DNA of 64,000 nucleotides from Terriglobia bacterium. Lineage in GTDB: Bacteria > Acidobacteriota > Terriglobia > Terriglobales > Acidobacteriaceae. Below are positions 8,085 through 52,542 of this stretch, in pieces. Both the position numbers and the translations under genes were made by a program. The DNA lies in the NCBI GenBank assembly GCA_020073015.1, contig JAIQFZ010000001.1, positions 1 to 64,000 on the forward strand. The letters run 5' to 3'. The notes beneath the pieces are model-generated. The model worked only from the letters and a program-made list of their open reading frames with translations, searched no databases and was not told the DNA's origin. The first letter of the stretch is position 1; every line of letters begins with the position of its first letter.

Positions 8085-9641
8085 ATGGCGATGGGCACGC
8101 GCAAGCAGCGGGAGAAGCAAGAGGGGTTGTGGATCGCGCACACGGAGCTGGCATCGGCGCCGGGGCATCCGTTTTATCAGCGTTTGAATGAGTTGCTGGA
8201 AGCGGAGGGGTTCGACGGGTTTGTGGAGAAACGGTGCGCGAAGTTCTATGCGGCCAAGTACGGGCGGCCGTCGCTGACGCCGGGGATTTACTTTCGGGCG
8301 CTGCTGATCGGGTATTTCGAGGGCATCGGGGCGGAGCGCGGCATTGCCTGGCGGCTGGCGGATTCGCTGGCGCTGCGGCGTTTCGTGGGCATCGCGCTGG
8401 ACGAGTACACGCCGGATCACTCGACGATTTCGCGAACGCGGCGGCTGATCGATCTGGACACGCATCGCGAAGTATTCGCCTGGGTGTTGGGTGTGCTGGC
8501 GGATCGCGGGCTGCTGAAAGGCCAGCGGATCGCGATTGATGCAACGACGCTGGAGGCGAACGCGGCGATGCGCTCGATTGTGCGGCGGGATACGGGCGAG
8601 AGTTACGAGGAGTTTCTGCGCGGGCTGGCGAAGGCCTCTGGCATTGCGACGCCGACGCGCGAAGACCTAGCGCGGTTGGACTTCTACGAGAGCGATCAGC
8701 TGTCAATTCGTGGAGTTCTCGCCGACGCATCTCCGGGAAGTCCGGTGGAGCAGGGTCATCTACCGTTCGGTGAGAACTGGTATGGCAACAATCTCAAGTG
8801 GAAGTTCACTTCCTACGAGCGCGATTCCGACGTTGGCGACGATTTCGCGCTGCTCCGTCGGTATCAGAACGTGTATGGGCGGTTCAACTCCCCCGATCCC
8901 GTCATGGGTTCTGCGCAAGACCCACAGACCTGGAATCGCTACACGTATGTTCTCAATGGTCCGTTGAATTACATAGATCCTCTTGGTCTCATGCCTATGA
9001 TTTGCAGTCCCGTTGGCAAGGAGGGTGGTTTCGGTTGCTGGATGCTTTGGGGCTGCATTAGTTTGTACGTGGACAACATATATTGGGGCGAGTATTGCGC
9101 CGGGGGCAGGGGAGGTTCACTGCTAGACCCTCCCGAGCCGACTCCGCCACCGCCGCATCCCCCAAACAACGCTACTCTGCCAAAGTGCTCATCTCTAGGA
9201 CCTCTCGGTGTGCTAGCTGCGGGCTTGAGTTTGGCGTCTCAATGGTCAGGAACCGGTTACACGTTGGGAGTTAATGGGAATGGCCTCAAGGCGAAGGTTG
9301 TTGGCGCTGATATCGCGGCCTCTGTCGCATTAGTTTCAGATCCCGCTGGCAACGTTGGTGTCGCACGAAGCCTATCCATAACACCATCCGTCGGAGCGCG
9401 CTCTTACGGCGGGGGCGTCATCATTGGCGGCTCAACATTTTCGGATCTCTCTGGCTACAGCTCATATAGCAACGTCAATTTCACTACGACATTCGGGGCT
9501 GGTTTTGCGACCGGCTTTACGGAGAGTTCAAATTCGTCTGGCCTCACTACTACGGCTTACGTGGGTTTTGGTACGGGTGGGAGTGCTGGAGCAAAGGGAT
9601 TAAGTCTGACAAACAATGTACAAGCATTCTGTAAACAATAA
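8085..9641 (+). CDS. Chimeric ORF: truncated IS transposase fused to Rhs C-terminal region
   Basis: A 518-residue open frame with two unrelated parts. Residues 1 to about 200 (PGHPFYQRLNELLEAEGFD, DEYTPDHSTISRTRRLID, GQRIAIDATTLEANAAM) are the N-terminal half of an IS1182/IS5-like transposase, ending after EDLARLD, where intact homologues continue into KRK-type sequence. The rest is the end of an Rhs/YD-repeat protein: LKWKFTSYERDSDVGDDFA and YGRFNSPDPVMGSAQDPQ, then WNRYTYVLNGPLNYIDPLGL, the hallmark that precedes the variable toxin tip. The tip (about 215 residues) has a Pro-rich linker, then a Gly/Ser-rich region, with no nuclease motif I recognise. Whether the chimera is expressed is unknown. 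Confidence 0.8.
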   Translation: MAMGTRKQREKQEGLWIAHTELASAPGHPFYQRLNELLEAEGFDGFVEKRCAKFYAAKYGRPSLTPGIYFRALLIGYFEGIGAERGIAWRLADSLALRRFVGIALDEYTPDHSTISRTRRLIDLDTHREVFAWVLGVLADRGLLKGQRIAIDATTLEANAAMRSIVRRDTGESYEEFLRGLAKASGIATPTREDLARLDFYESDQLSIRGVLADASPGSPVEQGHLPFGENWYGNNLKWKFTSYERDSDVGDDFALLRRYQNVYGRFNSPDPVMGSAQDPQTWNRYTYVLNGPLNYIDPLGLMPMICSPVGKEGGFGCWMLWGCISLYVDNIYWGEYCAGGRGGSLLDPPEPTPPPPHPPNNATLPKCSSLGPLGVLAAGLSLASQWSGTGYTLGVNGNGLKAKVVGADIAASVALVSDPAGNVGVARSLSITPSVGARSYGGGVIIGGSTFSDLSGYSSYSNVNFTTTFGAGFATGFTESSNSSGLTTTAYVGFGTGGSAGAKGLSLTNNVQAFCKQ

Positions 9642-49046: not shown

Positions 49047-51584
49047 CTAGAGTCCCGCAACCATCTCCTGTAGCTCCCGCGCAATCTTCTCTGAATCCTT
49101 CTCCGCCGGAAACTGCACCGGCTTCCCAACGCGCACTTGGATCCTCCCCGGCGCCGTCAGTCTCCTGCCCGCTTTCTTGATCTCGTACAGCCCGTCGATG
49201 CGCATGGGAAGAACCGGAATGCGCAGGTTGTTGGCCAGCAGCCCCACACCTGCCCGGAACGGGCAAAGCTTCCCATCTTCCGTGTGTCTCCCCTCCGGAA
49301 AAACCAGCACGCTGTACCCACGATCCACGGCCTCTCCCGCATAAGCAAAGCTCTTGCGGAATCCCGACTGCCGCGGCAGCGGGAACAAATTCAGCAGCGC
49401 GACGCCCAGTATCCATTGCATCCGGTCGTAGACCCGCCCGAGCCACCCTCGATCCACCGCCGGCGATCGCAGCTTTTCCAGCGCCTCTCCTCCCGCAGCC
49501 GTGGCCAGCCAGTGCCGGATTCGCGGCGGCAGCGCAGTCTGGATAAAACCCACATCCACGTCGGAAACATGATTCGAGACGACCAGCAGCGGCCCGCGTA
49601 TCCCGCGCAAGTTTTCCTGTCCAAGGATCCGCGGCCAACCCAGCACCAGCATCGCCGGACGCATCAGCAGATAGTGCGCCGCCAGCCGTGCCCACCTCAC
49701 CGGCCAGCGTAGCGCCCAGCGCGGATAGTGATATTGCCTGCGTTCGCCCCGCTCTCCCTGCAGAAGCTTTTCCAGATCGCCGACCGTCGCCGCACTAGCA
49801 AATTGCGTCTCGCTCAGATCCACCTGGTAGCGATCCTCGAGCGCTCCTAGAAGCTCCACGCGCTCCAGCGAACTTAACCCCAGGCTGCTTTCCAGATCCG
49901 CCCCAGAGGCAAGCGTTTGCGGAGGACGTCCCGTCACCCTCGAAAGCAGGTCTGAAAGTGGGCTGGCACCAGCAATGAAGGCACGGGCGCCCTCGCCCGT
50001 ACGCTGTCGCAGGCCAGCCTCCACCGCCTCGCGAATCACATTCCGCCGCGCTTTCTGCGTTGACGTTCGCGGAAAATCCTCTTCCGGCCACACAAACCAG
50101 CTGCGCATCCGCTGATACTCGGCCAGCGCCTGGTTGGCTCGTGTCACCACCTTTTCCGCGTCCGCATCGCGCTCGCGCAGAATCAGCACCGCGCACGGCT
50201 CGGCGTTACCGCCCCGTTCCAGGCCCACCACCACGCAGTCGCGAACTTCCTTCTGCTCCCGGAGCGCCGCTTCCAGGTCTTCGGGATAAACATTCATGCC
50301 CGCGGGCGTAACAATCACTTCCTTCTTCCGCCCTTTGAAAAACAGATTGTTGTCGCGGTCGACCGCCCCCAAGTCGCCGGTGCGGTACCAACCCTCTTCG
50401 CCGGCGACGGGTTGCAGTTCATGCCCATTCCAGTAGCCGCTGGCGACGCCGTTGCCGCGCACCAGAATTTCGCCATCTTCCGCCAGTCGAAGCTCGCGCC
50501 CCGACAACACCTTCCCGATCGATCCCCGGCTCAGACGGAATGGATGATTGACGCTGATCAGTGACGTCGTCTCCGTCAGCCCGTATCCCTGAATCAGCGC
50601 ATATCCCAGCCGATGCCAGAATTGTTCCGTCTCCCGATCCAGTGCCGCGCCGCCGCTGATCATCGCCCAGAATTTCCAGCCGAATTGCCGGCGAATGTCG
50701 CGGAACGTCCACCAGCGGCGCAGGTAGTGCTGCCCGTCGGCCCGGCGACAGCGCTCTGCAAAATTCTCGCGGCGTCCGCTGTCTTCCAGATCCCGCTCGA
50801 TCTTCTGCTTCAGCGACTCAATCATCCGCGGTACCGCCACCAGCACCGAGACGCGCTCTCGCCGGATGGTTGCCATCACTTCCGTCGGGTTCAATGTGTG
50901 CTCGAACACCACCGTCCCGCCCATGAGCGGGGGCAAAAAGATTCCCAGAAATTGTCCAAAGACATGACTGAGCGGCAGCAGGTTCAGGAAGCGAAGCGGG
51001 TGCACCAGTCGCTCGTAGCGCAAATACTTTCTGATCTCGGCATCGAGCGGTGTGACATTGGCGAGGACGTTCGCATGGGTGATCACCACTCCCTTGGGTT
51101 CGGCCGTCGTGCCCGAAGTGAAGACGATCTCCAGCGTGTCTGACGGCTGAATCTCCACTGGCCGAAACGGATCCGCCGAGTGCCGGGAAATCGCTGCCAA
51201 AAGCTCCGTCGGATCGATCGCCTCAATGCCCTCGAACACCTCCGCCCGTTCGCGAGAACACAGCACCAGCCGGGTTCGCACCTGCCCGCCGATCCGGCGT
51301 GCGAACTCCGGGCTCGCGCCGTCATCGATAGGAACCGCAATCACCCCGCACAGCGCGCATCCAAAGAACGCCGCGATCCACTCCGCGCAGTTCGCAGACC
51401 ACAGCAACACCGCGTCTCCCCGGCCTACATTGCGTGCCTGCAACTCGCGGGCAAAACGGTGCGCGGCCTCGGCCACCTGCCGGTAGCTCCAGTGCTGATG
51501 CCGGTATCCCTGCGGATACACGTAGGCGCACTCCCTGCCCCAGGCTGCGAAGTCGTCCAAATAGTCCAGCAGACTTGCCCGCAT
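49047..51584 (-). CDS. AMP-ligase / acyl carrier / acyltransferase fusion protein
   Basis: An 845-residue protein with three parts. The N-terminal part is an acyl-CoA/ACP synthetase-like AMP-ligase (IVFTSGTTAEPKGVVITHAN; LIQGYGLTETTSLISV; WYRTGDLGAVD). After a linker at about residue 527-540 (with a GGGCG palindrome) follows an acyl-carrier domain (DLESSLGLSSLERVELLG, pantetheine Ser). The C-terminal part is a PlsC acyltransferase (VVSNHVSDVDVGFIQTAL, HX4D type; VFPEGRHTEDGKLCPFRAGV). Comparable to Aas (acylglycerophosphoethanolamine acyltransferase), but with the order ligase-ACP-PlsC. It would load an acyl chain on the ACP and pass it to a lysophospholipid. Confidence 0.88.
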   Translation of the reverse strand: MRASLLDYLDDFAAWGRECAYVYPQGYRHQHWSYRQVAEAAHRFARELQARNVGRGDAVLLWSANCAEWIAAFFGCALCGVIAVPIDDGASPEFARRIGGQVRTRLVLCSRERAEVFEGIEAIDPTELLAAISRHSADPFRPVEIQPSDTLEIVFTSGTTAEPKGVVITHANVLANVTPLDAEIRKYLRYERLVHPLRFLNLLPLSHVFGQFLGIFLPPLMGGTVVFEHTLNPTEVMATIRRERVSVLVAVPRMIESLKQKIERDLEDSGRRENFAERCRRADGQHYLRRWWTFRDIRRQFGWKFWAMISGGAALDRETEQFWHRLGYALIQGYGLTETTSLISVNHPFRLSRGSIGKVLSGRELRLAEDGEILVRGNGVASGYWNGHELQPVAGEEGWYRTGDLGAVDRDNNLFFKGRKKEVIVTPAGMNVYPEDLEAALREQKEVRDCVVVGLERGGNAEPCAVLILRERDADAEKVVTRANQALAEYQRMRSWFVWPEEDFPRTSTQKARRNVIREAVEAGLRQRTGEGARAFIAGASPLSDLLSRVTGRPPQTLASGADLESSLGLSSLERVELLGALEDRYQVDLSETQFASAATVGDLEKLLQGERGERRQYHYPRWALRWPVRWARLAAHYLLMRPAMLVLGWPRILGQENLRGIRGPLLVVSNHVSDVDVGFIQTALPPRIRHWLATAAGGEALEKLRSPAVDRGWLGRVYDRMQWILGVALLNLFPLPRQSGFRKSFAYAGEAVDRGYSVLVFPEGRHTEDGKLCPFRAGVGLLANNLRIPVLPMRIDGLYEIKKAGRRLTAPGRIQVRVGKPVQFPAEKDSEKIARELQEMVAGL
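49984..49999. repeat. ACGGGCG/CGCCCGT palindrome in the fusion-gene linker
   Basis: ACGGGCG CC CTCGCCCGT encodes RTGEGARA between the ligase and the acyl-carrier domain. Short and G/C rich, so an insertion is possible but not certain. Confidence 0.4.
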
Positions 51585-51655
51585 ACCTTGTTTAGTAGCA
51601 CAATTCTCAAGCCTTTACAGGAAGACTGTTGCAGAAAGGCGTGGTCCGGGGCCGG

Positions 51656-52192
51656 ATGGCAAAACTTTCACTGATGAGACTTTCAACGACTCCGGCCGTT
51701 TTGCTGTTGGCCCTGGGTGGTCTGGTCGCCTGCCAGCCTCCCGGTTCCAGCGGCGCCAGCGCGGCTGCGCCGCCGCAGTCCGAGCGCTCCGGAGCTTCAT
51801 CCGCCGCCGGCCCCGCCCGCGATCTGAGCCAGGATGAAGCCGCCGGCGGCCACATTCTGCGCAAGCACGTCGGCCGGACCGACGATGAACTCCTCGAACG
51901 CCTCGACCACGAGCGCAACATTTCCGGCGCATCCACCTACACCGACCGCACCACTGCCGAGCGCGTTGTGGGCGCAGCCATCGCCCGGTCCCAGGACCGC
52001 ATCCAGCACTGGCTCAACCGCAGCGGCGGACATCCCAACCTGGTCCTGGACTACGATTCCGACCACCCGATTGGACGCACCATCAACCGCGGCGAAAGCC
52101 TGTCTCGCCCTTGCTCTCACGCCCTGGTCGTGCTGAAATACGATCCACCATCCGGTTACTACGTCTTGACCTCTTATCCGGAGTGCCGCTAA
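51656..52192 (+). CDS. Lipoprotein with RNase A-like CdiA-CT toxin domain
   Basis: 178 residues from ATG 51656. A signal peptide with lipobox (VLLLALGGLVAC, Cys about residue 26) is followed by a Ser/Ala/Pro linker and a C-terminal domain of about 110 residues: GGHILRKHVGRTDDELLERL, GASTYTDRTTAERVVGAAIA, then NLVLDYDSDHPIGRTINRG and YYVLTSYP. This is the bacterial CdiA-CT RNase A-like fold used as a toxin tip in contact-dependent inhibition. Known domain members cleave RNA. Here it is a small lipoprotein, without CdiA. The stop overlaps the start of the next gene (TAATG). Confidence 0.85.
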   Translation: MAKLSLMRLSTTPAVLLLALGGLVACQPPGSSGASAAAPPQSERSGASSAAGPARDLSQDEAAGGHILRKHVGRTDDELLERLDHERNISGASTYTDRTTAERVVGAAIARSQDRIQHWLNRSGGHPNLVLDYDSDHPIGRTINRGESLSRPCSHALVVLKYDPPSGYYVLTSYPECR

Positions 52193-52542
52193 TGGACCGC
52201 AAACCTTCCCACTCGAAGCCAGAAATCACCACCGCCAATTTCCCAACTCTGCACACCTTCCTGCGCGGCTACTTCCACGAAGACGTTGCCGACGAGTACG
52301 GGACTCCCCCCGAAGCCGCCGAGCAGTTCTGCGAAGACGCCGATACCGACGAACGCACCCCCGTCGCCCGCGAGTGGCAGCAATTAACGGAACTGACACA
52401 CGGACAGCCTGCCACCCTCAACGCAGCCTTGAAAAAACTAGGCAGTGCGGTGCAGTTGAATGAAGAGGAGATCCCGCAGATTTCCGCCATCTTCGCGCGT
52501 TGCCTCGCGCAAAAACCCAGGCGCCACGCCGCCAATGAATAA
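52192..52542 (+). CDS. CdiI-type immunity protein
   Basis: 116 residues, start ATG 52192 overlapping the toxin stop by one base. TLHTFLRGYFHEDVADEYGT then PPEAAEQFCEDADTDERTPV match the CdiI immunity family (CdiI_2 type) which binds and neutralises CdiA-CT toxins. Cytoplasmic, no signal peptide. The pairing with the RNase A-like lipoprotein supports the toxin-immunity interpretation. Confidence 0.82.
   Translation: MDRKPSHSKPEITTANFPTLHTFLRGYFHEDVADEYGTPPEAAEQFCEDADTDERTPVAREWQQLTELTHGQPATLNAALKKLGSAVQLNEEEIPQISAIFARCLAQKPRRHAANE

Follow-up and report, generated by a model that had tools for sequence, protein, structure and literature searches.

Reviews describe bacterial RNase A enzymes as toxin ends that accompany secretion systems (PMC9086364). 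The nearest described relative of the locus considered here is the CdiA-CT/CdiI pair of Yersinia kristensenii, in which the active site of the toxin domain, YkrCT, is made up of H175, R186, T276 and Y278, the toxin contains no disulfide, and the inhibitor, CdiI Ykris, caps the active site (PMC9086364). A cell that secretes an RNase has to keep the enzyme inhibited internally, as is seen with barnase and barstar (PMC8837141). The pair described in this report lies within a window of 64,000 nucleotides, which corresponds to positions 1-64,000 of the forward strand of contig JAIQFZ010000001.1 from a Terriglobia bacterium (GCA_020073015.1), and consists of two genes on the + strand that are flanked on both sides by genes on the - strand. 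Its toxin domain is 40% identical to that of Y. kristensenii and has the four active-site residues in common with it, and its inhibitor is detectably homologous to the Yersinia CdiI. Unlike the Yersinia pair, however, it is found without CdiA or CdiB, and the toxin is a short, vertically inherited protein with its own signal peptide, a lipobox and a pair of cysteines. With moderate confidence, we read the locus as an exported RNase with a cytoplasmic inhibitor, forming a stable inherited module that is not part of a CDI system.

The first gene (51674..52192, + strand) encodes a predicted exported lipoprotein of the RNase A superfamily, 172 amino acids in length, which matches the Pfam family RNAse_A_bac (PF18431) at 103.1 bits against a cut-off of 27, with all 113 profile positions covered. 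The RNase A-like catalytic domain (GGH...SYPECR; 51845..52189, +) is the sole folded domain of the protein, and is followed by the TAA stop codon at 52190-52192. Upstream of the domain are a predicted type II signal peptide (51674..51733, +), which ends in the L-V-A-C lipobox (51722-51733) that had been recognized from the sequence and has Gln at position +2, and a low-complexity linker rich in Ser, Ala and Pro (51734..51844, +). This linker contains no folded domain (AlphaFold pLDDT ~60, residues 1-40) and leaves ~37 residues between the lipid anchor and the RNase; the toxin model has a pLDDT of 87.7. The sequence-only reading had placed the two genes at 51656-52542. Both open reading frames stand, but the beginning of the toxin gene has moved. 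In the closest relative of the locus (L020) the ATG at 51674 is conserved, whereas the one corresponding to 51656 is missing and an indel of one base disrupts the frame ahead of 51674; the start is therefore set at 51674, and the upstream ATG at 51656, probably unused, was dropped as a candidate.

Numbered from the ATG at 51674, the catalytic residues are His65 (51866..51868, +; YkrCT His175), Arg76 (51899..51901, +; YkrCT Arg186), Thr166 (52169-52171, +; YkrCT Thr276) and Tyr168 (52175-52177, +; YkrCT Tyr278). The first three are the same in all 62 sequences compared, and the tyrosine is found in 61 of them. The claim of an RNase A-like domain with an intact active site has thus survived a check for the loss of conserved catalytic residues, as all four are present. 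The protein also contains Cys147 (52112..52114, +) and Cys171 (52184..52186, +), which may be joined by a disulfide close to the catalytic strand at the C-terminus. The cysteine pair is present in 29 of the 62 relatives, and in two loci (L050 and L066) the C-terminal Cys is retained with the second Cys at a position other than that of Cys147. In the Terriglobales versions, the pair would fit an oxidizing compartment and a life outside the cytoplasm.

The second gene (52192..52542, +) encodes an inhibitor, or immunity, protein of the CdiI_2 family with 116 amino acids and no signal peptide, and matches PF18593 at 40.7 bits against a cut-off of 26.7. Its ATG begins at 52192, on the last base of the toxin TAA, so the one-base overlap with a CdiI-family gene that had been proposed is real. 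In profile searches both chains of a single solved complex, 5E3E, are recovered: 5e3e_B with the profile built from 62 toxin homologues (3.6e-26), and 5e3e_A, the CdiI chain, with that built from 53 inhibitor homologues (E 1.7e-11). The toxin also matches 5e3e_B in a phmmer search (3.6e-20); a single-sequence search of the PDB with the inhibitor gave no match, and its match came only with the profile. At the level of structure, Foldseek places 5e3e_B as the top match of the toxin model (E 6e-13, rmsd 1.8, TM 0.89 by target length). With the inhibitor model (pLDDT 86.2) the CdiI chain is clearly ranked first, at a weak E-value (0.013-0.022) and a probability of 1.00.

Among 396 Acidobacteriota genomes, 18 contain the RNase A domain, 17 contain CdiI_2 and 16 contain both, with never more than one CdiI_2 in each of these 16. 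In 13 of the Acidobacteriota loci a short exported protein is directly followed by the inhibitor gene. The domain had been thought of as one that normally ends very large CdiA proteins, a view that does not hold in Acidobacteriota, where most matches are short exported proteins. A scan of 84,980 species returned 68 loci, nearly all from metagenome-assembled genomes (MAGs), which are found mostly in Acidobacteriota but also in Dehalococcoidia, Lihuaxuella, cyanobacteria and others. A CdiI_2-like gene is located directly behind the toxin in 60 of the 68. The lipoprotein architecture itself was sought and found in other genomes: with signal types assigned by simple rules and a loose regular expression for the lipobox, 46 of the 68 relatives combine a lipobox-like site with a CdiI_2 neighbor, one further match (L080) resembles a plain signal peptide, and another 17 relatives have a hydrophobic N-terminus without a lipobox, 11 of these with CdiI_2. 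By these assignments lipidation is the commonest predicted anchor, and others exist. None of the lipobox proteins has Asp at +2.

Several members of this wider family depart from the common arrangement. One MAG (JAIQFO) has two copies of the pair on two contigs (L024 and L025), which are 68% and 63% identical to that of the window. In one locus (L016, genome G385) the RNase A domain ends a phage portal-like protein and a small overlapping gene comes next, and two others (L017 and L019) encode long proteins with an RNase A-like domain at the end that lacks its N-terminal catalytic part; a CdiI_2 gene comes after each of them. In Lihuaxuella thermophila DSM 46701 (L074), a cultured carrier, the toxin is a lipobox version and the gene beside it matches only weakly. 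Four cyanobacterial loci (L081, L082, L084 and L085) and a Rhodospirillales MAG (L080) encode RNase A-like proteins that are secreted, and 10-360 bases downstream of each is a gene for a protein of 95-106 amino acids that belongs to no Pfam family. These small proteins are ~31% identical between the cyanobacterial and L080 groups, have marginal similarity to CdiI_2, and are candidates for a second inhibitor family.

The distribution of export signals bears directly on where the two proteins work. Nearly all of the short toxin relatives have an export or anchor signal and none of the inhibitors does, a hydrophobic N-terminus being found in 0 of 68 inhibitor homologues, so the conserved trait is export of the nuclease together with retention of the inhibitor. 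An inhibitor that is not exported places the need for protection in the cytoplasm, the compartment that contains the RNA. The suggestion that the toxin acts in the periplasm, either of a target cell or within the envelope of the producer itself, draws on the export signal, but is made very unlikely by inhibitors that are never exported. A pair of small overlapping genes in an operon also brings to mind an intracellular toxin-antitoxin system in which the signal-like N-terminus would be irrelevant. This is more improbable again, as the signal or anchor has been retained across ~63 divergent relatives even though its sequence varies freely among them.

A CDI system is recognized by CdiB and a CdiA with a TPS domain, with the toxin at the C-terminus of a large CdiA, and the 172-residue protein does not have this form. 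The source genome is 99.2% complete in 245 contigs. It contains no match to CdiB/ShlB (PF03865), in a search for which a Moorena genome served as positive control with 5 matches, and no match to the TPS domain of CdiA (PF05860), in a search that had no positive control; ShlB is also missing from seven further genomes with toxin relatives. The proposed absence of CdiA and CdiB is upheld in these searches. Carriage of the pair as mobile or phage cargo was also considered and was ruled out, as collections of phages and viral contigs yielded no relative and plasmids yield only distant matches (~28-36% identity, in Rhizobium and Pantoea).

In ~25 of the 68 loci the pair adjoins a gene for a divergent acyl-ACP synthetase/acyltransferase, found in the window at 49047..51584 (-), which marks a conserved place and has no part in the mechanism. 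Across 22 loci, protein distances between toxins and between inhibitors follow those of the synthetase gene (Mantel r 0.81 and 0.89, respectively). In a comparison of the window with L020, the RNase domain has a dN/dS of 0.078 and the inhibitor one of 0.071, compared with 0.01-0.15 for the neighboring genes and 0.071 for AccD, with dS similar across genes; the signal and linker, at 0.28, are the fastest-evolving part. The low values and the tracking of the synthetase together indicate vertical inheritance under strong purifying selection. Orphan CdiA-CT/CdiI cassettes are common near CDI loci, which counts in favor of the pair being the degenerate remnant of a CdiA C-terminus. It is nevertheless the least probable of the alternatives and is refuted by the dN/dS values, equal to those of core genes, and by the conservation in dozens of species of a protein with its own signal peptide, without CdiB. 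The pair is found beside the synthetase gene in only 2 of 30 inspected family loci that have that gene, and must therefore have been lost, or gained, often.

Two other features of the window may be mentioned. The intergenic region between the synthetase and the toxin contains a block, TGTTTAGTAGCACAATTN..CTTTACA (51590-51622), that is conserved in ~13 species and is likely to be the promoter or operator of the synthetase. A regulatory element common to the toxin and its neighbor was considered for it and dropped, since the block is probably the synthetase's own. Farther away, a single-frame open reading frame at 8085-9641 combines a transposase-like N-terminal half with an RHS-type core and tail (YGRFNSPDP...YIDPLG), apparently as the result of an insertion in place of the original beginning of an RHS gene.

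The main alternative to an exported nuclease is an antibacterial lipoprotein toxin that reaches neighboring cells by surface contact, by exchange of outer membrane or in outer-membrane vesicles, and from which CdiI shields kin, in the manner of the SitA system. We regard this as possible but distinctly doubtful. The toxin and immunity families are those of CDI, the lipobox lacks Asp at +2, the distribution is patchy, and SitA lipoproteins bear CdiA-type nuclease ends (PMC5562445). Against delivery, the pair is inherited vertically at a fixed place under strong purifying selection, and carrier genomes have one CdiI_2 each, with no orphan or additional immunity genes and no orphan arrays. It is the N-terminus that varies while the folded toxin domain stays constant, opposite to the pattern of polymorphic toxins, and no variable toxin end is present. 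The ~37-residue linker between the anchor and the RNase is too short to accommodate an escort or translocation domain like those of SitA (PMC8546572), and SitA orthologues have been reported only in species with traAB (PMC5562445). The short linker, conserved toxin and variable N-terminus lead us to prefer an exported RNase and its inhibitor to a toxin that is delivered, and the idea of a polymorphic contact toxin is not borne out by this single vertically inherited locus with its one inhibitor. A variant, in which a non-polymorphic, lipid-anchored RNase A shared across the Acidobacteriota lineage sits on the outer membrane or on vesicles and enters neighbors without a secretion system, the inhibitor making carriers mutually safe, is less likely than that and would be somewhat surprising.

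The exported RNase with a cytoplasmic inhibitor is favored by homology to both chains of the complex, by the intact active site and the export signal, and by the fact that the pair is conserved and passed on vertically under purifying selection. According to this reading, the first gene would encode an RNase from the bacterial branch of the RNase A superfamily that works without metal. The Sec pathway would export the protein, which would carry a lipid on its N-terminal Cys and be held by it in the cell envelope. The absence of Asp at +2 makes the outer membrane the probable location. The second gene is probably translationally coupled to the first through the one-base overlap, and its product, a small helical inhibitor, would stay in the cytoplasm. 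An RNase that folded there would kill its maker, a problem that is solved by an inhibitor from the adjacent gene that caps the active site. The target would be either precursor that has folded before export or enzyme that re-enters the cell. The likeliest substrate of the RNase is RNA beyond the cytoplasm, from the environment or from lysed neighbors, and use against competitors is possible. Two considerations weigh against the exported nuclease: the relative of the pair with a tested role, in CDI, inhibits neighbors, and the patchiness at the synthetase locus (2 of 30) fits a housekeeping enzyme less well. No tie to the use of RNA, whether regulatory or metabolic, was found.

Among known systems, an entry for an "RNase A-like domain-containing lipoprotein" exists in NCBIfam (NF041883); its name gives no role, and it has a lipoprotein and an RNase A-like domain in common with the protein described here. 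At 66.8 bits the protein falls below the cut-off of 200 for this model, which covers residues 33-176, and is therefore not a member. The combination of lipoprotein and RNase A is thus not new in itself, and CdiA-type toxin ends on lipoproteins are also on record from SitA (PMC5562445). What is new is that the pair is widespread, vertically inherited and often located beside the same divergent acyl-ACP synthetase gene; the literature searched contained no description of such a paired, vertically inherited module in Acidobacteriota.

In SitA/SitI of the myxobacteria, a lipobox protein with a CdiA-type nuclease end is likewise accompanied by an immunity protein, and the SitI-type protein is not transferred. 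SitA, however, has escort domains at its N-terminus, its toxin ends vary, and it is found only together with traAB (PMC5562445, PMC8546572), whereas the toxin here is constant and has no escort domain. Ribocin of P. aeruginosa (PA3318/PA14_21120) is similarly a stand-alone member of the RNase A superfamily with a signal peptide and homologous His, Thr and Tyr residues, but it is only 15% identical to CdiA-CT Ykris and belongs to another family; it is reported to cut eukaryotic ribosomes, and the available portion of the report does not mention an inhibitor gene (PMC13189344). Barnase/barstar of Bacillus amyloliquefaciens (PMC8837141) and NucA/NuiA of Anabaena (PMC4890671) both consist of an exported nuclease and a dedicated cytoplasmic inhibitor, as is predicted here, although their folds differ from the RNase A fold and CdiI_2, and barnase is secreted free rather than being, as predicted for this protein, lipid-anchored. 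A further parallel is provided by the secreted RNase A of vertebrates and its cytosolic inhibitor. In contrast to the toxin ends of secretion systems, the RNase A enzyme and inhibitor here form a free-standing unit of two genes that is inherited and strongly conserved in soil bacteria and whose enzyme is predicted to lie at the cell envelope, which suggests that the toxin ends of CDI systems may derive from, or be domesticated into, ordinary exported nucleases.
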